17,530 nucleotides of DNA from Acidithiobacillus ferruginosus. GTDB lineage: Bacteria; Pseudomonadota; Gammaproteobacteria; Acidithiobacillales; Acidithiobacillaceae. The position numbers and the translations under genes were made by a program. Shown here one piece after another: positions 928 to 10,234 of this stretch. Within the stretch, counting starts at the first letter, position 1; every line of letters begins with the position of its first letter. The stretch spans positions 1-17,530 of the forward strand of contig NZ_JABBDR010000279.1 of the NCBI RefSeq assembly GCF_018854495.1, given 5' to 3'. A model generated the notes under the pieces. It did no database searches. It had not been told where the DNA came from and saw only the letters and a program-made list of their open reading frames with translations.

Positions 928-1818
928 TCACACTGCACACAGATCCAACAGGGAGCACTGGCGCGGAGCGTGCCGGTCGTACCAATCCGTAAGGCGCGGA
1001 TTCAACCAGATCCTTTCTGTCCGCTCTCGATCAATATCTTCTCCAGCTTGCCCTGATCGGTTCGCGTGACAGGCGTGGGCGACATCCACAAAGGACCATC
1101 CTTGCCCGGATTCCAAATGATCCGAATATAAATCACTGGGATAGCCGGAAATCGCGACATAGGCATCACATGCTGAGAGTACCTGAAGCAGGTTTTCATG
1201 ATCCTGGTCACTCATCTCATCGGCATATTGCCCGTCTCTGCGGGTGGCCTGGAGATACGGCGGATCACAGTAGATGACGGCGGATGGGGTATCGAATCTC
1301 CGGACAACCGCAATGGCATCATCGTTCTCAATCAGCGCGTACCGCAGCCGATCCCGAACCAATCGCAATTCCGAATCGATGACTGCGGCCATGGACCTTG
1401 CTTTATTGTCAAAAACCTTGGCAAAGGCCCATGCTGGATTTTTGCGGGTGGACTCGGCGGCGAATGCGGATCTGGCGATATAGAAAAACCGCGCGGCGCG
1501 TTCGAGGTCTGGCAGGCTTGCCGGGTCCGGAATGGCCCGCCACTCGTAAAACAGTTGGCGCGAGTAGGGGGTGTTCTGCAAGTATCGGATCAGTTCGTCT
1601 GTGTGGTCACGGAGCACACGAAAGAAGGTCACAATCTCGCCATTGGCATCATTGATGACCTCGATGCCGGAGGGACGACGGGCAAAGAATACCGCTCCGC
1701 CACCAAAGAAGGGTTCAACATAGGTCAGATCCCGCGACGGCGCGGGGAGGCGGGCAAGAATCTGGTCAGCCAGTTTTCCCTTGCCGCCCAGCCAGGGGAA
1801 TGGCGGATGCACTCTCAT
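928..1818 (-). CDS. Dam-type (D12 class) N6-adenine DNA methyltransferase
   Basis: 296 residues. It is predicted to transfer a methyl group from S-adenosylmethionine to adenine N6 in DNA. The N-terminal FPWLGGKGKL (7-16) is the alternative SAM-binding motif of D12-class enzymes. VEPFFGGGAVFF (34-45) follows, and DPPY (185-188) is the catalytic motif IV. The order of motifs and the length near 270-300 fit Dam/MboII-M-like proteins. No restriction endonuclease is adjacent, so it is probably an orphan phage methylase that protects phage DNA or affects replication or expression; the target site cannot be read from the sequence. Its ATG overlaps the stop of the preceding gene (ATGA, 1815-1818), showing translational coupling in the early operon. 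Confidence 0.9.
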   Translation of the reverse strand: MRVHPPFPWLGGKGKLADQILARLPAPSRDLTYVEPFFGGGAVFFARRPSGIEVINDANGEIVTFFRVLRDHTDELIRYLQNTPYSRQLFYEWRAIPDPASLPDLERAARFFYIARSAFAAESTRKNPAWAFAKVFDNKARSMAAVIDSELRLVRDRLRYALIENDDAIAVVRRFDTPSAVIYCDPPYLQATRRDGQYADEMSDQDHENLLQVLSACDAYVAISGYPSDLYSDHLESGQGWSFVDVAHACHANRSGQAGEDIDRERTERIWLNPRLTDWYDRHAPRQCSLLDLCAV

Positions 1819-3014
1819 ACGGAGGCCACCTGCAATGCAGCCATTACCGCATGTTCATCATTCTCCCCACGAAGGTATGCCTTGCATGTGTCGAAAAGGG
1901 AGACCACTTCACAGCCGTCGGCCCTGCCAACACGCAGGACCTGCTTGCGAATATCGGTCAACCCTCGATTGCCCAGCAGTTCACGCAGCGATGCTGCTTC
2001 AAGGCTGATTTCCTCGGTTTTCTTCAGTACTTGAAGAAGACCGAGAATGGCACGGTATTCCCTTGCCTCGGCCAGGTAAGGTATGAGCTGCTTTGCAGCG
2101 AGTTGCTGGTTACCCACCTGAATCAGAAGATCCAGGAACTCCCGCTGGTCGGCAGGCATCTCATAACTGTCGTCTTCCTCTTCCAGGTCAATACCTCCGA
2201 CCGCGATGGACACCTGGTCTTCCAGCGAAAGTCGCTCGCTACTGCCTCGTACCTCATGGTCTCCCCTTTCTTCCAGCGCATATTCCAGGCGAACCTCTGT
2301 TCGCGCTCCATGAAGCGTGGCTTCCATTCTTTCCAGTTCCCGCAATTTTTTCTGCCGCTTTTCTCCGGAGAGACTCTTGAGCTCCGATCGCCGCTGCCGG
2401 ATGACTCTTTCCAGCGATGCTTTCGAGAACGTCGGTTCGTGTGGCAACACAGATTCCGCATCAAGCCGTTTTCGATAAATAAAATCTTCCATGGCATCAC
2501 GGGAGGCAAACCGGGTATGCACGTCAACGAATGTCGCAATATTGGGGTGCGGCACCGTTGCCAGGTCGTGCTTCTCCGTAAAGTGTTGCAATGCCTTGGT
2601 GGCCGCCGTGACGGCAAGATCGTGATGATCGTCGCGATGATCTGGTATAGACCATTCAGCCGTCCTGATTTTGGTTTCGATGATTGCGGCTCCGCGCCGA
2701 ATGGCTTCGGAGACGATCTGGTTCATCACGTGATTTTGGCGGGGGGTCAACTGGATGCTTTGTGACCAGCGCATCAGGCGGATGGCGATCTGAGCGCTGC
2801 AATCGTATCCCTTCGGAGAAAAGTCGGTCGCACGCAGGTCTTCCAGGAACTGTCTTGGCTCAGCAAAGAATGGGCCAAGGTCGATCAGGTAGAATGCCAT
2901 GTTCCCGGTCGCGCTTCGGGCGCAAGCAGAGCGGATAGGATGAGGATTCAGTATCGGGTGGCCTTCTGAGAGACGAGTTATCAGCAGGCGCTGCTGTTCA
3001 TGATTCCTGTTCAT
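1815..3014 (-). CDS. Unknown early protein, possible sigma-region-2-like segment
   Basis: 399 residues, family not recognised. Residues about 95-190 have a spacing reminiscent of sigma-70 region 2: a helix with IVSEAIRRGAA, an acidic DHRDDHHDL, then AVTAATKALQHF, and ATFVDVHTRFASRDAMEDFIYRKR in the place of the 'F-TYA--RIRGAMLD--R' core of FliA-like factors. Residues 198-256 are very charged and probably helical or coiled-coil, followed by an acidic linker (277-284). The C-terminal third is Leu-rich helix without an obvious region 4 helix-turn-helix. The sigma resemblance is weak and by eye only. Both ends are ATGA overlaps with the helicase loader and the methylase, so it belongs to the early operon. 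An internal start at residue 39 (MAFYLIDLG) is possible; I keep the first ATG because of the overlap and a GGGGTG upstream. Confidence 0.75.
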   Translation of the reverse strand: MNRNHEQQRLLITRLSEGHPILNPHPIRSACARSATGNMAFYLIDLGPFFAEPRQFLEDLRATDFSPKGYDCSAQIAIRLMRWSQSIQLTPRQNHVMNQIVSEAIRRGAAIIETKIRTAEWSIPDHRDDHHDLAVTAATKALQHFTEKHDLATVPHPNIATFVDVHTRFASRDAMEDFIYRKRLDAESVLPHEPTFSKASLERVIRQRRSELKSLSGEKRQKKLRELERMEATLHGARTEVRLEYALEERGDHEVRGSSERLSLEDQVSIAVGGIDLEEEDDSYEMPADQREFLDLLIQVGNQQLAAKQLIPYLAEAREYRAILGLLQVLKKTEEISLEAASLRELLGNRGLTDIRKQVLRVGRADGCEVVSLFDTCKAYLRGENDEHAVMAALQVASV

Positions 3015-3871
3015 AGTTCACCCCGCAGGCAGGCCGCCGTATCGGATTTGCACTCTCTCCCCCGACGATGGCTCTGCCAGTCAAAAAGCAATAACCCGCC
3101 ATTCTGGCACAGCCGGTCGAAGGCGGCCGGACCCAGGTATTTCTCCACACCGCCAATACTCTCGTTGGACAGGATGAGGGTCGGCTTCAGGTCGCGGTAT
3201 CGGTGATCAATGACCTCGAAGAGATGCACCCGCTCTCCATCGCTGCCGAAGGTTTTCCCGACCTCGTCGATGATGAGCAGGCCCACTTCCGCAAACCCGC
3301 GGATGACCTCCAGTTCCGTGCTGTTGCCAATTCCCCGCTGCCAGGTCTGGCGGATCCGGGCAATGATGTCGTAGGCGGTGACCTGGAGCACGCTGTGCCC
3401 TTTGGCCAGCACCACGTGGGCGATGGCAGACGCCAGGTGGTTCTTGCCCGTGCCGGGATTCCCGCAGAGGACGAGACAGGATCCCTTACGGGCGTGCTCC
3501 TCGAAATGATCCGCGTAGTCCCGGCAGACATCGAGAGCCGTCTGCTGACCCGGGACCTCGACCACGTAGTTGTCGAAGCCGCAGTCAATGTAACGCTTTG
3601 GGATCGCCGCGCTCTCCATGAGCCGACGGGATGCCTGCTCCGCCGCGCACACCGGACAGACCGGCGACATGTAGCGGATGGCATCCCGCTCATCCACCAT
3701 GGAGATCGGATAGCGGCCGTGGCGCGCGCACTCGCGGTACTGGGGATGCCGGTCGGGCAGGATCGCCACGTTATTGGGATCGAACCCCCATCGGGCAAGG
3801 AGACCCCTGGCAGCATCGCCCGCGTGGACTAATGGCTGATGGTTGCTCTCGGACTTCTTTGGTATTGCCAT
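3011..3871 (-). CDS. DnaC/IstB-like AAA+ ATPase, probable helicase loader
   Basis: 286 residues. It is predicted to load the replicative helicase at the element's origin, as DnaC or lambda P do. A zinc-ribbon-like cluster C48-x2-H51 and C72-x2-C75 precedes the ATPase domain. Walker A is GNPGTGKN (137-144), Walker B LLIIDE (198-203), sensor I SNES (235-238), and AAFDRL carries a candidate arginine finger (R253). The open frame extends 13 codons further upstream, but the ATG at 3871 has AGGAGAG at ideal spacing just beyond the stop of the preceding gene, so I chose it. It sits directly after the DUF1376-type gene: initiator-like protein plus loader is the standard phage replication pairing. It ends in an ATGA overlap with the next gene. 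An IstB role is unlikely because no IS21 transposase is present. Confidence 0.88.
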   Translation of the reverse strand: MAIPKKSESNHQPLVHAGDAARGLLARWGFDPNNVAILPDRHPQYRECARHGRYPISMVDERDAIRYMSPVCPVCAAEQASRRLMESAAIPKRYIDCGFDNYVVEVPGQQTALDVCRDYADHFEEHARKGSCLVLCGNPGTGKNHLASAIAHVVLAKGHSVLQVTAYDIIARIRQTWQRGIGNSTELEVIRGFAEVGLLIIDEVGKTFGSDGERVHLFEVIDHRYRDLKPTLILSNESIGGVEKYLGPAAFDRLCQNGGLLLFDWQSHRRGRECKSDTAACLRGEL

Positions 3872-3881
3872 GGCAGCTCTC

Positions 3882-4928
3882 CTACAGGGCAATGAAATGA
3901 GATTCGGCAACGGCGACGGGCGGCAGGAGAGAGCGGTTGGGCGGCCCCGCTGCGGGCTTGTTCTTTCCTCCTTTCCCTGAAGATTTCCCAGCGTCTTTCA
4001 GCATCGCGGCGATATAGCCGACGTGGATGCCGCTGCCTTTTTTCTCCAGCGCGATTTCCGCCGCGGCCAGGATGTGTTCGTCGGAATGACGGGCGCACAT
4101 CTCCTGCACGACAACCATATGGGGGGCCGCACGGACGCCGAGCCCACGTAATTTCTTGCAGATCAGCCCTTCGCGGGTTGATGGGTGGGTTTCCAAGTTA
4201 TCTGGAGACGGCGTTTCTGGAGTTACGGATAACGGCGTTATGGGCGTTACGCGTGACGTTATGCGTGACGTTACTGTAGCGTTATCTTCATCTTTATCTT
4301 TATCTTCTTCTTTAATAGGTGACGTTACGGGCGTTACGCGTGACGTTATGGCAGGCGTTACGGGCGTTACGCTTTGCATGGCGTCCGCAGCGGACGACTC
4401 CGACTCCTCAGCACCCAGGTTGACCGGGGTCTCACTCTTGACCCGCTTGGCGCGCTGGCTGTCCCGGAACTTCTGTTGCCGTGCCCTAGCCTTGGCTTTC
4501 GCAACCTCTCGCGTGTCGAGGGGCTCGCCAACTGATGGTCGTGCGTGAACCGCAGCCAGAATATCGAGTACGGTGCCGGCCACCGCCTGATGGTAAAGAC
4601 GGCCATCCGAACACAATTCCCAGCCATGAAGCGCCATCTCCCGGATGCGCTGCCAGGGTTTCCGGCGATAGTCATATCCCCCAGCCAGCTTCGCCAGGAT
4701 GGCTTCGTCATTGGGCAGGCTTCCTGCCGGTAATTGATGGATGCTTTTTGTCCACAGCATGAAGGCGGCCTTGAACTCCTCCGGGCTCGCTAGTTGCATG
4801 AAATCCGAATTAAGCAGACTGACGATATCCAGCTTGAACCAGCGGACACTTCGGAGATCAACATCGGTTGTAATGGGTGGATCTATATCCGATATTTCTG
4901 ATATGAATGGCTTGCGTGGATTACACAT
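3882..4928 (-). CDS. DUF1376-type phage replication protein, internal repeat-rich linker
   Basis: 348 residues. The N-terminal part (about 28-125: WFKLDIVSLLNSDFMQLASP, then LPNDEAILAKLAG) matches the DUF1376/YdaU pattern found in phage replication modules next to DnaC-like loaders. A basic stretch (143-165) leads to a low-complexity linker (about 185-245) full of V-T-P, I-T-S-R and an acidic KEEDKDKDEDN run. The C-terminal domain (250-312) is helical. By position it is a candidate origin-binding initiator, analogous to lambda O, but DNA binding is inferred. I prefer the ATG at 4928, preceded by GGAGG at 5 bases; a GTG two codons upstream is possible. The linker is encoded by DNA repeats that may be the origin itself (see 4236-4372). 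Confidence 0.82.
   Translation of the reverse strand: MCNPRKPFISEISDIDPPITTDVDLRSVRWFKLDIVSLLNSDFMQLASPEEFKAAFMLWTKSIHQLPAGSLPNDEAILAKLAGGYDYRRKPWQRIREMALHGWELCSDGRLYHQAVAGTVLDILAAVHARPSVGEPLDTREVAKAKARARQQKFRDSQRAKRVKSETPVNLGAEESESSAADAMQSVTPVTPAITSRVTPVTSPIKEEDKDKDEDNATVTSRITSRVTPITPLSVTPETPSPDNLETHPSTREGLICKKLRGLGVRAAPHMVVVQEMCARHSDEHILAAAEIALEKKGSGIHVGYIAAMLKDAGKSSGKGGKNKPAAGPPNRSLLPPVAVAESHFIAL
4236..4372. repeat. Ten CGTTAY iteron-like repeats flanking an A+T-rich tract; candidate origin
   Basis: On the plus strand CGTTA(C/T) begins at 4236, 4245, 4257, 4269, 4280 and again at 4323, 4332, 4344, 4356, 4365. The spacings are 9, 12, 12, 11 and 9, 12, 12, 9. A 28-bp unit (4236-4263) recurs at 4323-4350 with one mismatch. 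Between the two groups, 4286-4318 is an A+T-rich, almost pure pyrimidine tract on the plus strand. Iterons plus an A+T-rich strand-asymmetric tract inside the replication-protein gene, next to the helicase loader, is the layout of the lambda origin within gene O. The origin function is inferred. A simple repetitive protein linker is the alternative, although the fourth interval of 11 breaks the codon phase, which argues that DNA spacing and not only peptide repetition is kept. Confidence 0.5.
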
Positions 4929-4930
4929 GC

Positions 4931-5074
4931 TCACCTCCAGTGAGATCGGCCGGCTCCTGCCCTGTAGTCGTAGCCGGCGGCCTGCGCCAGGGCGGCAGCG
5001 CGAATGTCGGTGTCCGGCGGGGTCAGCGGTTTCAGATCAGATGTGCCGATGATGCACGGTTTTAGTGCGCTCAT
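4931..5074 (-). CDS. Small early protein, 47 residues, unknown
   Basis: A short frame, MSALKPCIIGTSDLKPLTPP..., fills the whole gap between the BRO antirepressor and the DUF1376 gene. Its ATG overlaps the BRO stop (ATGA, 5071-5074), with AGGAG 8 bases upstream. Its stop lies two bases before the next gene's ATG, and its last codons carry that gene's GGAGG ribosome site. Such exact packing is typical of real coupled phage genes. No domain is recognised; the composition (DIRAAALAQAAGYDY) suggests one helix. It may act as a small regulator or only as a coupling cistron. Confidence 0.6.
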   Translation of the reverse strand: MSALKPCIIGTSDLKPLTPPDTDIRAAALAQAAGYDYRAGAGRSHWR

Positions 5075-5640
5075 AGCTTGAACTCCTGATCAATGGGCTT
5101 GGCGAGGATGTAGCCGTTGGCCTCAACAATCTCGGCGAGTTGCCGGGCGGTCACGACCATGGCACCCTCGGGAACGGGTTCGGCGCGACAACGGCCATCG
5201 GCCTCGAAGGTCAGCAGCAGTTTGGTGCCTGGTGGCACGAGGGAGGGTGTGTGGTCTTGGGGTACGGCATACCTGCCCGATCGCCGGATGGCGGGCAGGA
5301 CCTCGGCGGTGACCCACTTGCGGAAGGGCTTCGCTTCGCGCTTGCGGCTTTTCAGGAGGGCGTGATAAAGACCAGATTCGGAGATGATGGTGACTTCGCG
5401 GGTCTGGAGGGTGCCGTTCTCGGACCTGATCCGCATAGTGTGCGGGGCAGCTTCGTCCTCATCGAGAACGCGGGTCATATCACGAGACTCTCGATAGCCA
5501 AGAGCTTTGGCTACGTCATCAGCGACGAACCAGATCTGGCCGTCCCGATCGACGGTGCGAACTTCGGTGGAATGGAATTGAAAAACAGCGGGCTTCGCAG
5601 CCTGCAAGGGCGCGGACGCGCCGGGGGCATGAATATCCAT
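5071..5640 (-). CDS. BRO-N family antirepressor-like protein
   Basis: 189 residues. The BRO-N domain spans about 19-124: FQFHSTEVRTV, WFVADDVAKALGY (38-49), the ISESGLYHALLKSRKREAKP segment and FRKWVTAEVLPAIRRSGRY. Phage proteins with this domain (Ant of P1/P22-like phages and relatives) bind DNA or a repressor and relieve immunity. The C-terminal 65 residues are unrecognised. The frame stays open up to 5955, but the domain begins just after the ATG at 5640, which has AGAGGA 8 bases upstream, so I start there. That ribosome site is complementary to a segment of the leader (see the C4-like RNA), suggesting antisense control. A product starting at 5955 (294 residues, also preceded by AGAGGA) cannot be excluded. 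It heads the early/replication operon. Confidence 0.85.
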   Translation of the reverse strand: MDIHAPGASAPLQAAKPAVFQFHSTEVRTVDRDGQIWFVADDVAKALGYRESRDMTRVLDEDEAAPHTMRIRSENGTLQTREVTIISESGLYHALLKSRKREAKPFRKWVTAEVLPAIRRSGRYAVPQDHTPSLVPPGTKLLLTFEADGRCRAEPVPEGAMVVTARQLAEIVEANGYILAKPIDQEFKL

Positions 5641-5648
5641 GACGTCAA

Positions 5649-5691
5649 TCCTCTGATTGCGGTTGTCTCCGCACCCGCTACCAAACGGGTG
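5649..5691 (-). promoter_or_regulatory. Antisense target: hairpin and ribosome site of the antirepressor gene
   Basis: On the minus strand a perfect 6-bp stem (CACCCG/CGGGTG) closes an 8-base loop, TTTGGTAG (5672-5691). Farther down is ATCAGAGGA (5649-5657), containing the ribosome site of the BRO gene. The same loop and the same ATCAGAGG also occur at 5831-5856, and both are complementary to 5708-5727. This is the arrangement expected of a C4-regulated antirepressor start. Confidence 0.55.
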
Positions 5692-5705
5692 GACGGAACC
5701 GTGCA

Positions 5706-5875
5706 GGTTGGTAGACCGGTCAGAGGGCCGGCGAGCCTTACGGCTCCCCGCACGGCCCCGCCCATAGAGGGTAGAGCCATGCAAACGGACGAAAAAATAG
5801 TCGCAAACGCGAGGCTGGCGACTGTCCGCCTCTGATACCGGGCTACCAAACCCGGTCACCGGGACCCCGGTGACA
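5706..5875 (-). ncRNA. C4-like antisense RNA in the antirepressor leader
   Basis: The leader, read on the minus strand, starts with a 7-bp GC-rich hairpin (5856-5873). Then comes a 6-bp stem, ACCGGG/CCCGGT, closing the loop TTTGGTAG (5837-5856), followed by ATCAGAGG (5829-5836). About 100 bases later is CCCTCTGACCGGTCTACCAA (5708-5727), whose CCTCTGA and CTACCAA are complementary to ATCAGAGG and to TTTGGTAG, both in this hairpin and in the second copy at the antirepressor start. C4 RNA of phages P1 and P7 uses two short complementary segments in the same transcript to block ant translation. The match here is in architecture and location; I did not compare with a covariance model. The mature ends are estimated from the promoter at 5881-5910. 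Confidence 0.6.
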
Positions 5876-5880
5876 GGATG

Positions 5881-5910
5881 AGCGTAGTCCCGCGCCGCGG
5901 AGGGTGTCAA
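5881..5910 (-). promoter_or_regulatory. Promoter of the C4-like RNA/antirepressor operon
   Basis: On the minus strand a perfect TTGACA (5905-5910) is separated by 18 bases from TACGCT (5881-5886), a weak -10. Transcription would begin near 5874, exactly at the first hairpin of the C4-like leader. The position supports the call more than the -10 does. Confidence 0.5.
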
Positions 5911-6034
5911 GTGCCCAGGCTGCCGGTCGGTAAGGGCGATGCCTTGGCGGTTCATGCCGTCCTCTGGATGCGGTACAGTGACCGCCTTTGGTCATTGCGG
6001 AGGCGCCGGAAAGAAAATATTCCGAAACGCGTGC

Positions 6035-6289
6035 TCATGCGGATTCCCTTTCAGGCTCTGGGGCCTGGGAGGAGGGGGCACCATTACGTCGTCTCCGGGG
6101 GTCAGGAAGTCCCGGAGGCAAGAGCTTTAGACGGATTGCCGCACCGACCAATCTGTCGGAGGTGTCTTGGGGCAAATCTTCGGGCCACTGGTAAACGGCT
6201 TGGCGACTGATCCCAAGCGCATCGCCAACGGCTTTCATGGTGCCGCCGAAGATCCGTATCGCTTCCTGTTTTGTTCGGATGGTGCTCAT
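6035..6289 (-). CDS. Cro-like DNA-binding protein
   Basis: 84 residues with a helix-turn-helix at about 15-36 (GGTMKAVGDALGISRQAVYQW) followed by PEDLPQDTSDRLVGAAIRL. That combination is typical of small Cro/YdaS-type phage regulators. The C-terminal third is basic then Pro/Glu-rich and probably unstructured. I start at MSTIRTKQ (6289); the frame is open 14 codons further, but those codons lie over the putative promoter and the operator. It is transcribed divergently from the repressor gene at 6349, the classical cro-cI arrangement, and would repress repressor synthesis to favour early expression. No strong ribosome site precedes the ATG, so translation may be weak or the start uncertain. Confidence 0.82.
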   Translation of the reverse strand: MSTIRTKQEAIRIFGGTMKAVGDALGISRQAVYQWPEDLPQDTSDRLVGAAIRLKLLPPGLPDPRRRRNGAPSSQAPEPERESA

Positions 6290-6296
6290 GATTAAT

Positions 6297-6325
6297 AGTA
6301 AAGCAATCTTCACCATGTTAGTCAA
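6297..6325 (-). promoter_or_regulatory. Probable cro promoter
   Basis: The minus strand has TTGACT (6320-6325), 17 bases, then TTTACT (6297-6302), immediately upstream of the Cro-like gene. The second rightward promoter (7643-7671) has the same two hexamers with the same spacing and much of the same spacer, so both look like co-regulated promoters. Confidence 0.55.
6298..6313. promoter_or_regulatory. Operator-like dyad O1 in the cro promoter
   Basis: On the minus strand: GTGAAG-ATTG-CTTTAC. It is an inverted repeat with one mismatch in the arms and covers the -10 hexamer. The identical arms with a different central tetranucleotide recur at 7655-7670, again over the -10 of a promoter. A binding site for the adjacent repressor or the Cro-like protein is inferred. 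Confidence 0.55.
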
Positions 6326-6339
6326 GGACACTTTTCCTG

Positions 6340-6360
6340 GTGGTCAGTATGCTTGACCAC
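6340..6360. promoter_or_regulatory. Perfect 7-bp inverted repeat over the repressor start codon
   Basis: GTGGTCA and TGACCAC are separated by 7 bases and frame the ATG at 6349. It could be an autoregulatory operator or an mRNA hairpin that hides the start. Its arms differ from the dyad at 6298-6313, so a different protein or mechanism is likely. Confidence 0.45.
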
Positions 6361-6807
6361 ATGGACGACATCGGCGATCGCGTCAAGGAAATCAGAAAGC
6401 GACTGGGATTGACTCAGGCAGAGCTGGGGAAGCATGCGGGCGGATTGAGTAAATCCGCTGTCCACCAGTGGGAGAACGGCGGAACGAAGCCGGCATGGGA
6501 TGCCTTAACTGCCCTCCGAAAGAATTTGGGCATCAATCCCGACTGGGTAATGCAGGGAGAGGGTGCGATGCTCCAGGAGCTAGGGACACCTAACGCGGCA
6601 ACGTTAATAGAATCTGGCGCGGATGGGCTGCCGTTTGACGGACGGGGACTGACGCCTAGACAACGGGCCATGCTGGGGATCTTCGACCGCCTGACGTCCA
6701 GTCAACAGGATGACGTCATGCGAGAGCTTGAAGAGACTAAACGGAAGAATGAAGAAATAATTGAAGAGCTTACCAGCCGAAAAACCAACCATGCAAATGG
6801 GTCTTGA
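6349..6807 (+). CDS. CI-like phage repressor lacking a peptidase domain
   Basis: 152 residues. The N-terminal helix-turn-helix of the XRE/CI type spans about 7-62 (RVKEIRKRLGLTQAELGKHA, LSKSAVHQWENGGTKP), followed by the phage-repressor hallmark INPDWVMQGEG (62-72). The C-terminus (101-145) is a predicted coiled coil (SSQQDDVMRELEETKRKNEE), probably for oligomerisation. There is no S24 (LexA-like) peptidase domain, so RecA-stimulated self-cleavage is not expected; release would need an antirepressor such as the BRO protein. GTG at 6340 and ATG at 6361 are alternative starts; I chose ATG 6349 for the GGTGG just upstream. It is divergent from the Cro-like gene. Confidence 0.85.
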   Translation: MLDHMDDIGDRVKEIRKRLGLTQAELGKHAGGLSKSAVHQWENGGTKPAWDALTALRKNLGINPDWVMQGEGAMLQELGTPNAATLIESGADGLPFDGRGLTPRQRAMLGIFDRLTSSQQDDVMRELEETKRKNEEIIEELTSRKTNHANGS

Positions 6808-6889: not shown

Positions 6890-7237
6890 CTATGTTCCGG
6901 CAACTTTCCGATGACGCGGCCCCTGCCGGGTTGGCTCGACCTTGAGTTGCTTGGAAACGATCTGGTTCCAGATCGCCTTTTTCTCGCACTCCACAAAGCG
7001 GCCCAGAACCTGCTTCATAAGGGTTTGATAGCCGATACCGTTGATATTGGCTATTAACTTTAGGTCCTCAATCATGGACACGCCAAGGCGGATGGAAATG
7101 AGTTGGGTGCCAGCAGCCGCATCTAGCTGGAGATCCGACGCCTTCACCACTCCTACATATGCCTCATCAGCTCCCAACTCCCGATTGTCCCACGCCTCAT
7201 CGGTCGATGGGATTTTGGTTTCATTGGTTGATTTCAT
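6890..7237 (-). CDS. CopG/BrnA-like antitoxin
   Basis: 115 residues. An acidic N-terminus (AWDNRELGADEAYVGVV) precedes ISIRLGVSMIEDLKLIANINGIGYQTLMKQVLGRF (about 46-81), a ribbon-helix-helix-like pattern of antitoxins encoded downstream of small toxins. Such proteins bind the toxin and autoregulate the operon. The ATG overlaps the stop of the upstream toxin gene (ATGA, 7234-7237), the usual toxin-first coupling in this family. The toxin gene appears broken, so this antitoxin may now act alone, perhaps neutralising related toxins. The tail from 95 onward is basic and unrecognised. Confidence 0.72.
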   Translation of the reverse strand: MKSTNETKIPSTDEAWDNRELGADEAYVGVVKASDLQLDAAAGTQLISIRLGVSMIEDLKLIANINGIGYQTLMKQVLGRFVECEKKAIWNQIVSKQLKVEPTRQGPRHRKVAGT

Positions 7238-7524
7238 TGATTCTCTCCATACTTTCTGTATATACGGACTTCCTCATCGTTCGGTTCATAAGCCGTGCGA
7301 ACATGGAAGTCCCCATCAACGGGAATAAAGGCCACTTTCAGCTTCCGCCCCATATACGTTTCAGCAATAAACCATAATGTGGGCGGATCAGAGCGGTGGT
7401 CTTCCCTTTGGTCGCGCAGGAAGTCTCCCACCAAGTTCGCAAAGCACTCCTCTACCTCCTCTTCGCGGACACCGTGCTTCTCTTTTAATTTTCATCTGAT
7501 TTTATTGGATATAATAATGGCCAT
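7234..7524 (-). pseudogene. Small toxin-like gene interrupted by an in-frame TGA
   Basis: From ATG 7524 the frame reads MAIIISNKIR, then TGA (7492-7494), then continues without a shift: KLKEKHGVREEEVEECFANL... LWFIAETYMGRKLKVAFIPV... VRTAYEPNDEEVRIYRKYG. The pieces on both sides of the stop fit one protein of about 96 residues that is commonly found next to CopG-like antitoxins (members are sometimes labelled as ADP-ribosyl-dinitrogen-reductase hydrolases). The stop replaces one codon only, so this looks like a point nonsense mutation. A shortened product of 66 residues could start at TTG 7434, losing the KHGV...CF segment. GGTGG lies shortly before the ATG. The function as toxin is inferred from the pairing and size. 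Confidence 0.62.
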
Positions 7525-8903: not shown

Positions 8904-9247
8904 AAACCTACGATCTGCACGAAGCCGCCCAGATCCTGCACCTGCACCCGGACACTGTGCAGCGCCGGGCCAAAGCGGGGGAGATACCGGGCGCTAAGCC
9001 GGGCAAAGAATGGGTGTTCCGCGAAGAAGCCCTTGCCGAGTATCTCTTGCGGCTGGAAACTCAACCACGGCAGGCAGCCAAAAAGGAGACAACAATATGC
9101 TCTACAAACGTGGTAACACTTGGTGGATTGACTTTACAGCGGCCAACGGGCAGCGGATTAGACGCTCGGCTGGCACCAGTAACAAGTCGCAAGCGCAAGA
9201 ACTTCACGACCGGCTCAAAACCGAAGCGTGGAGGCAAGTCGAGTTAG
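8900..9247 (+). CDS. Excisionase-type helix-turn-helix protein
   Basis: 115 residues as an open frame. Residues 1-52 (YDLHEAAQILHLHPDTVQRRAKAGEIPGAKPGKEWVFREEALAEYL) are a MerR-like winged helix of the excisionase/AlpA HTH_17 type, which bends DNA at attachment sites and directs excision. The remaining 60 residues overlap the integrase gene by 151 bases and read as out-of-frame integrase sequence, basic and unstructured, so the functional part is the N-terminal half. Start: ATGA overlap with the preceding frame plus GAGGA at 5 bases. Overlapping xis-int order is also seen in lambda, though with a shorter overlap. Confidence 0.8.
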   Translation: MKTYDLHEAAQILHLHPDTVQRRAKAGEIPGAKPGKEWVFREEALAEYLLRLETQPRQAAKKETTICSTNVVTLGGLTLQRPTGSGLDARLAPVTSRKRKNFTTGSKPKRGGKSS

Positions 9248-10152
9248 GGTCTCTGCCGCGCATGACCTGGGATGATGCCGGGCTGCGATGGCTGGATGAG
9301 CGGAGTCACAAAGCCAGCCTGAAAAAGGACATGATCGAACTGGCCTGGTTGCAAACCTATTTCCGTGGCATGTTTCTGGACAAGATGGATCGTAATTTCA
9401 TTCGGGAAGTGCTGGAAATCAAGCGGAAAGAATCCAGCCCGGCCAATGCCAATCGTTATCTGGCACTAATTCGGGCCATCCTGAATAGCTGTATCGAATG
9501 GGGTTGGTTACATTACGCCCCGAAATTGCGGCAATATCACGAGCCGAAACGTCGCATCCGCTGGCTCTATCCCGAAGAAGCGGCAAAACTTCTGGAATTG
9601 TTGCCGGAACATTTGCGTGACATGGCGGGATTCTCGCTTGCTACCGGGTTACGGCAAGCGAATGTGGCCGGACTTCGTTGGGATCAGGTGGATATGGCTC
9701 GCCGCGTCGCGTGGATTCATCACGACCAAAGCAAGAACAGAAAGCCTCTGGGGGTTAATCTGACCAATTCGGCCATTGCCATTCTGCAACGTCAGATAGG
9801 CAGGCATCTCACCCAGGTATTCACTTATCGCGGGAAGCCGGTGAAACAGACGAATACCAAAGCCTGGCAAAAGGCGTTGGAAAAGGCAGGGATTACCGAT
9901 TTCCGATGGCATGACCTGCGGCATACCTGGGCATCCTGGCATATCCAGTCCGGCACAAGCCTGGAGCGGTTACAGGAAATGGGCGGTTGGGAATCGGTCG
10001 AGATGGTGCGTCGCTATGCGCACATGGCCCCGGAACATCTTGCAGAGGATTCGGCAAAAATTGAGAGCATCCTGGAAAAGGTCTGTCCTCATGGTACAAA
10101 TACGTCACAACCGCACATTTTTGCCTTACCCAAAAATAGGGTAACCGCCTGA
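9097..10152 (+). CDS. int: Tyrosine-recombinase integrase
   Basis: 351 residues. It catalyses site-specific integration and excision. The N-terminal arm-binding region (MLYKRGNTWWIDFTAANGQR) and core-binding domain (about 55-150) precede the catalytic domain with R186 (ATGLRQANV), K213 (QSKNRK), H272 and R275 (WHDLRHTWAS), W298 (GGW) and nucleophile Y307 (RRYAHMAPEH). All residues are present, so it is probably active. The start ATG 9097 has AAGGAG 7 bases upstream; the open frame reaches back to 9010 but that part belongs to the excisionase gene. The gene ends 7 bp from the 3' end of tRNA-Phe, the likely integration site. The last 25 residues are a non-conserved tail. Confidence 0.95.
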   Translation: MLYKRGNTWWIDFTAANGQRIRRSAGTSNKSQAQELHDRLKTEAWRQVELGSLPRMTWDDAGLRWLDERSHKASLKKDMIELAWLQTYFRGMFLDKMDRNFIREVLEIKRKESSPANANRYLALIRAILNSCIEWGWLHYAPKLRQYHEPKRRIRWLYPEEAAKLLELLPEHLRDMAGFSLATGLRQANVAGLRWDQVDMARRVAWIHHDQSKNRKPLGVNLTNSAIAILQRQIGRHLTQVFTYRGKPVKQTNTKAWQKALEKAGITDFRWHDLRHTWASWHIQSGTSLERLQEMGGWESVEMVRRYAHMAPEHLAEDSAKIESILEKVCPHGTNTSQPHIFALPKNRVTA

Positions 10153-10158
10153 TTTATA

Positions 10159-10234
<76 letters not shown>

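Follow-up and report, generated by a model that had tools for sequence, protein, structure and literature searches.

What controls the antirepressor gene in the phage-like element carried by this contig, and does the leader ahead of that gene work as the c4-ant leader does in phages P1 and P7? In those phages the c4 RNA is described as binding the ant mRNA around its ribosome site, the basis of P1/P7 heteroimmunity (review PMC12197685); C4 is cut by RNase P, its b' segment partly covers the ribosome sites, and a' confers specificity (PMC5320573). Expression of P1 Ant is reported to be controlled by C1, C4 and Icd (PMC8201110). The original prediction for this DNA carried the same logic over to a BRO-N protein. 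We conclude that the locus is very probably an antisense switch like that of P1/P7, with a C4 RNA ahead of a BRO-type antirepressor, a reading that is supported by the match to the C4 family model, by the domain and phage-family matches of the BRO protein, and by a three-way complementarity that recurs across loci.

The element and its probable antirepressor gene

The window, meaning the whole stretch of DNA that was analyzed, is one entire contig (17530 bases); the genome it comes from has a size of 3.0 Mb and comprises 309 contigs. On its minus strand lies a phage-like early region, in which the C4 leader (about 5640-5910) stands between a Cro-like gene and the BRO-N gene and is followed further on by replication genes and a methyltransferase:

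6340-6807, plus strand: CI-like repressor with a helix-turn-helix (domain and phage-family matches)
6035-6331, minus strand: Cro-like protein (P22_Cro, domain match), upstream of the C4 leader
5071-5640, minus strand: BRO-N antirepressor-like protein, 189 aa (open reading frame with domain and phage-family matches)
3882-4934, minus strand: replication protein
3011-3910, minus strand: DnaC-like loader
1815-3014, minus strand: frame without a family assignment
928-1818, minus strand: D12 adenine methyltransferase
9010-10152, plus strand: integrase

The BRO protein passes the cut-off for the Bro-N domain (PF02498, E 1.8e-23) and, among phage protein families, hits those of anti-repressors (phrog_130, E 2.8e-42); a search of solved structures gave no sequence match to it up to E 0.01. 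Judging from these family matches, the gene probably serves to wake a dormant phage-like element, and the CI-like repressor is a possible target of its product. Within the window the BRO frame is open upstream for 117 codons, and a fusion of BRO to a conserved ORF ahead of it (a 294-aa frame from 5955) was considered. We rejected it because stops lie close upstream in 5 of 11 relatives: the frame is open for 4-16 codons in L032, L036, L037, L084 and L086 and for 58-232 in the other six. No conserved icd-like or orf45-like leader ORF was found in the window and these 11 relatives; BRO lies directly behind the second target element described below.

Three further features of the contig are recorded here. 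A tRNA gene (10162-10234, minus strand) ends 10 bases from the integrase gene and is a likely attachment site. Close to the contig end, a group II intron model (group-II-D1D4-4) matches at 250-403 on the minus strand with 66.7 bits against a cut-off of 49. A CopG-type antitoxin-like protein (6890-7237, minus strand, E 4e-7) has its start overlapped by a 66-aa frame (region 6890-7434), and the two may form a toxin-antitoxin pair.

The C4 leader

Read 5' to 3' on the minus strand, the leader runs from a TTGACA box through a hairpin presenting a1, b1, a terminator-like hairpin, C4, a hairpin presenting a2, and b2 to BRO-N. The parts, all on the minus strand, are as follows:

5905-5910, minus strand: perfect -35-like box TTGACA, conserved in 7 of the 9 leaders aligned, the window included
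5881-5886, minus strand: weak -10-like box TACGCT, 18 bases past TTGACA, a 3/6 fit to TATAAT
5835-5887, minus strand: c4-a1b1-like element (RF03163), 40.4 bits, below the gathering score of 46.7
5837-5856, minus strand: hairpin presenting a1, loop TTTGGTAG at 5843-5850 (folding)
5829-5836, minus strand: b1, ATCAGAGG (sequence)
5794-5865, minus strand: weak isrK-like match (RF01394), 27.2 bits, below the cut-off of 50
5792-5823 (hairpin 5799-5823), minus strand: terminator-like hairpin with 6 pairs, a loop of 13 and a run of six T (folding; position conserved in aligned leaders)
5685-5769, minus strand: C4 antisense RNA (RF01695), 65.2 bits, gathering score 45, E 5.9e-11
5720-5726, minus strand: b' of C4, CCTCTGA, complement of ATCAGAGG
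5708-5714, minus strand: a' of C4, CTACCAA, complement of TTTGGTAG
5673-5690, minus strand: hairpin presenting a2, loop TTTGGTAG at 5678-5685 (folding)
5650-5657, minus strand: b2, ATCAGAGG, containing the BRO ribosome site (sequence)

The locus belongs to the C4 family, its score lying over the curated cut-off of the Rfam model that had been suggested as the check. The C4 fold has a z-score of -4.37, with none of 200 shuffles as stable, and 13 of the 19 consensus pairs are changed on both sides among 33 chosen sequences. A C4 RNA is expected to be trimmed by RNase P to some 77 bases; the 5' end here carries ATGGGCGG, and the GGW motif named in PMC5320573 is not exact there. The c4-a1b1 and isrK models are matched in place and in order, both below cut-off, and the terminator-like hairpin is the 3' part of the weak isrK-like match.

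Most of what had been read from the letters holds. The two hairpins do carry the same loop, each is followed by the same element, the second copy of which contains the BRO ribosome site and ends 9 bases upstream of the BRO ATG (5640), and the segment at 5708-5727 is complementary to both elements through a' and b'. Of 5000 dinucleotide shuffles of the region 5600-5960, none gave an ordered 8-base repeat pair with both intervening complements, and 95 gave the paired repeats alone. Two points need qualification. Of the proposed TTGACA promoter, the box itself stands, but its partner is poor, and a promoter scan listed nothing on the minus strand, this pair included. The duplicated target inside the regulator RNA is present, but it is the standard a1b1/a2b2 layout of the family, with a1b1 parted from C4 by the terminator-like hairpin. 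A terminator scan likewise listed nothing on the minus strand, the hairpin at 5799-5823 included; the loop of this hairpin has 13 bases, over the limit of 8 that the scan applies.

Target pairing and a proposed switch

In the window, both the a and the b code match 7/7 at the targets before and behind C4. We set this beside other loci, having found 62 distinct C4 places, of which 37 were retrieved as loci for a test of the longest exact complement (gathering-score scans covered L002-L021 and 18 further loci). Over these 37 loci, the longest complements between a C4 core and the flanks of the same locus add up to 292 upstream and 302 downstream; with partners swapped in 10000 shuffles the sums were 224.7 upstream (sd 6.0, maximum 247) and 212.9 downstream (sd 6.2, maximum 236). 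The 7-base codes were compared in the same manner over 43 loci, leaving aside L080 (twin of L079) and L085 (same scores as L084). The a code reached at least 6/7 at both flanks in 39 of 43 loci (swapped mean 5.2, max 13) and 7/7 in 33 (swapped mean 1.5, max 7); for the b code the counts were 43 of 43 (swapped mean 11.7, max 23) and 25 of 43 (swapped mean 1.0, max 6). Thus, across 43 C4 loci, a', a1 and a2, like b', b1 and b2, agree much more closely within a locus than when partners are exchanged between loci; as related sequences are not independent, the shuffle figures of both tests are not probabilities. Distinct codes numbered 31 for a and 36 for b (44 rows including one twin, 43 with an a candidate), as called by an automatic caller that can confuse the two and sometimes mistook b for a (L083, L101, L109, L112 and L139).

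The exact 7/7 matches at both targets, together with the intact reading frames for BRO, Cro, CI, the replication proteins and the integrase, argue against the locus being a decayed remnant that has lost its expression or regulation. The contig covers 17.5 kb, with the remainder of the element out of view, and this leaves some room for such decay, which we regard as very improbable.

We propose the following order of events for the C4 switch. A minus-strand transcript would start near 5880, and a partial stop at the hairpin (5792-5823) would yield a short a1b1 RNA, while the read-through RNA would hold C4, a2b2 and BRO. C4 would then be excised from the read-through RNA, as RNase P does in P1/P7, and its a' and b' would pair with a2 and b2 and mask the ribosome site of BRO, whose translation would thereby be blocked; without BRO, the CI-like repressor would keep the element quiet. 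Because a1b1 can also pair with C4, it may be a decoy that frees the BRO mRNA when abundant.

The layout of a target, an antisense RNA and a second target, in which a terminator-like hairpin follows the first of the two targets, also resembles the seqA-CI-seqC arrangement reported for P4 (PMC4825925). By analogy, C4 might pair with nascent a1 (seqA-like) and a2 (seqC-like) to bring about early transcription termination, with translation affected only indirectly. The computed pairing is in keeping with this, being stronger with a1b1: only 4 of 200 shuffled targets were as good as the duplex of the C4 core with a1b1, and 52 of 200 were as good as that with a2b2. This lack of contrast for a2b2 counts against the P1/P7-type switch, as do the weak -10-like box, the empty promoter and terminator scans of this strand and the scores of c4-a1b1 and isrK below their cut-offs. 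That b2 covers the BRO ribosome site, and that it is the C4 family model and not another that is matched, speak for a translational block, and we consider termination as the main mode unlikely.

A second alternative concerns the short RNA. Experiments on the Salmonella prophage Gifsy-1 showed that a short RNA from the same promoter, IsrK, acts in trans on the read-through mRNA of the antirepressor gene anrP and lifts its translation about 140-fold (PMC4825925). The window has the same order of parts, so that the a1b1 RNA could bind the read-through RNA in trans and turn BRO translation on as the main switch. We hold this to be possible, if on balance not favored: the isrK model reaches only 27.2 bits, well short of its cut-off, a conserved orf45-like leader ORF is absent, and BRO lies directly behind b2. 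Activation of this type is compatible with C4 repression, so the two are partly the same model. The decoy idea was itself suggested by Salmonella IsrK. In Gifsy-1 a small processed RNA sits between the short RNA and the antirepressor gene, and the growth arrest mediated by IsrK was enhanced, not relieved, when this middle RNA, STnc1160, was co-expressed (PMC4825925), a result at odds with a simple decoy. By analogy with these systems, we assign moderate confidence to the a1b1 RNA acting as a decoy or activator.

Distribution, code alleles and known systems

C4 occurs in 24 of 369 genomes sampled from the class and in 6 of 31 genomes of the order, the own genome (which has one C4) being counted in both. 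Of the 1123 phage records that contain a relative of BRO, four were examined for C4, and in all four (PAJU2, R656, P54 and IFTN3) a C4 above cut-off lies directly upstream of a BRO-type antirepressor; that of IFTN3 is labelled Rha family in its record. In IMG/VR, C4 is present in 4 of 41 records that contain a relative of BRO, and these 4 are among the 5 records with the best-matching proteins, so elsewhere either C4 does not control BRO or the record is fragmentary. Downstream of C4 we found 8 Bro-N, 3 AntA and 1 SymE protein among 31 scanned, the scan having excluded six of 37 loci in which the ORF was absent or its automatic start poor (L005, L007, L011, L024, L025 and L034). The SymE case (L030 1501-1832, G077:C13) has C4 ahead of a gene for a 66-aa SymE-like toxin (SymE_toxin, E 7.4e-13) that starts 51 bases past C4, and from its sequence it would be a C4 switch that controls a toxin in place of an antirepressor; C4 is present in 1 of 4 genomes of the family to which that genome belongs.

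Loci with several C4 units, or with one target missing, were also seen. L087 (1700-3092, G261:C9) packs four tandem C4 units into 1.4 kb. Within every unit a1, a' and a2 match one another; the four a codes differ, and b is identical in three of the four. In a same-genus genome, L089 (1-10362, G369:C105) holds two C4-BRO units of different code after a TraG_N-domain protein; the stretch between the units has separate frames with repeated pieces that resemble the C-terminal tail of this protein. At 11 of 43 C4 places from genomes with at least two C4 loci (L098, L099, L100, L102, L103, L104, L109, L110, L111, L112 and L135), a1 is present upstream at 7/7 and a downstream a2 was not found (at most 5/7); these C4 RNAs perhaps act in trans.

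The most informative relative is L037 (inside L095), from a same-genus genome. Its CI-like protein is 64% identical to that of the window over 154 aa, its Cro-like protein 82% over 73 aa, and its leader DNA 86% over 240 bases. The b sites are identical to those of the window, and a1, a' and a2 are changed together. Its antirepressor has AntA (E 2.5e-25) instead of BRO-N, with 48 of the last 58 residues the same (a hand count on the alignment), so that L037 appears to be one case of a joint change of a code and N-terminal domain. In L035, from another genus of the same family, both codes are retained along with a BRO protein. It is conceivable, and in our estimation quite improbable, that C4 switches form a bar-coded immunity family, in which the a code changes as a unit (a1, a', a2) on a constant scaffold and can accompany a swap of BRO-N for AntA over a retained C-terminal tail. 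If that were true, tandem C4 units of different code and C4 loci lacking a2 would serve as a reserve for silencing antirepressors that other elements encode. An insulation of codes within genomes was looked for and rejected: in 12 genomes with at least two C4 loci (45 places, of which 43 gave a candidate for a'), the mean Hamming distance was 3.08 within and 3.31 between genomes, and 93% of permutations gave a mean at least as large as that within genomes. Codes within a genome are thus not more different than between genomes, and the bar-code idea gains no support from this test. The coordinated code changes are in any case natural alleles for testing which bases define immunity groups.

Among known systems, the closest is C4/immI of P1/P7 (RF01695), which has the same C4 fold with a' and b' and, as described in PMC12197685 and PMC5320573, a target copy before C4 and another over the antirepressor ribosome site. 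The window differs from it in having a BRO-N antirepressor (AntA in L037) and in that no conserved icd-like leader ORF was found. The isrK-orf45-anrP region of Gifsy-1 has its parts in the same order, from the promoter through a short RNA that ends at a terminator (in the window, a terminator-like hairpin) and a small middle RNA to the antirepressor gene (PMC4825925); in the window the isrK match is below cut-off and an orf45-like leader ORF was not seen. The P4 CI RNA, likened here by its description in PMC4825925, is an antisense RNA flanked by its own targets seqA and seqC, as in the window, but it acts by transcription termination on replication genes. The Group 1 C4-like sRNAs of Acinetobacter baumannii are reported to have the C4 fold with a variable a' loop and several copies per genome (PMC5320573); their targets are open, whereas in the window the target gene is adjacent.

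The c4 and c4-a1b1 motifs are among those of Weinberg 2010 (PMC2864571). In a literature search whose scope took in few subscription journals, no title or abstract start among the matches listed names a C4-controlled BRO gene. A C4 before a BRO-type antirepressor is nevertheless already known from sequenced phages: Pseudomonas phages PAJU2, YMC11/02/R656 and YMC11/07/P54 and Bordetella phage IFTN3 have C4 above cut-off in this position, as in the window. Of these four phage loci, c4-a1b1 is above cut-off only in PAJU2 and R656 and isrK in PAJU2, R656 and P54, and their codes differ from that of the window. The locus thus looks like a well-formed new addition to the known C4 family, and not like a system of a new kind. 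It adds, in an order with C4 in six of 31 genomes, a C4 switch with both targets intact before a BRO antirepressor, and, apart from the natural code alleles, it confirms established biology.
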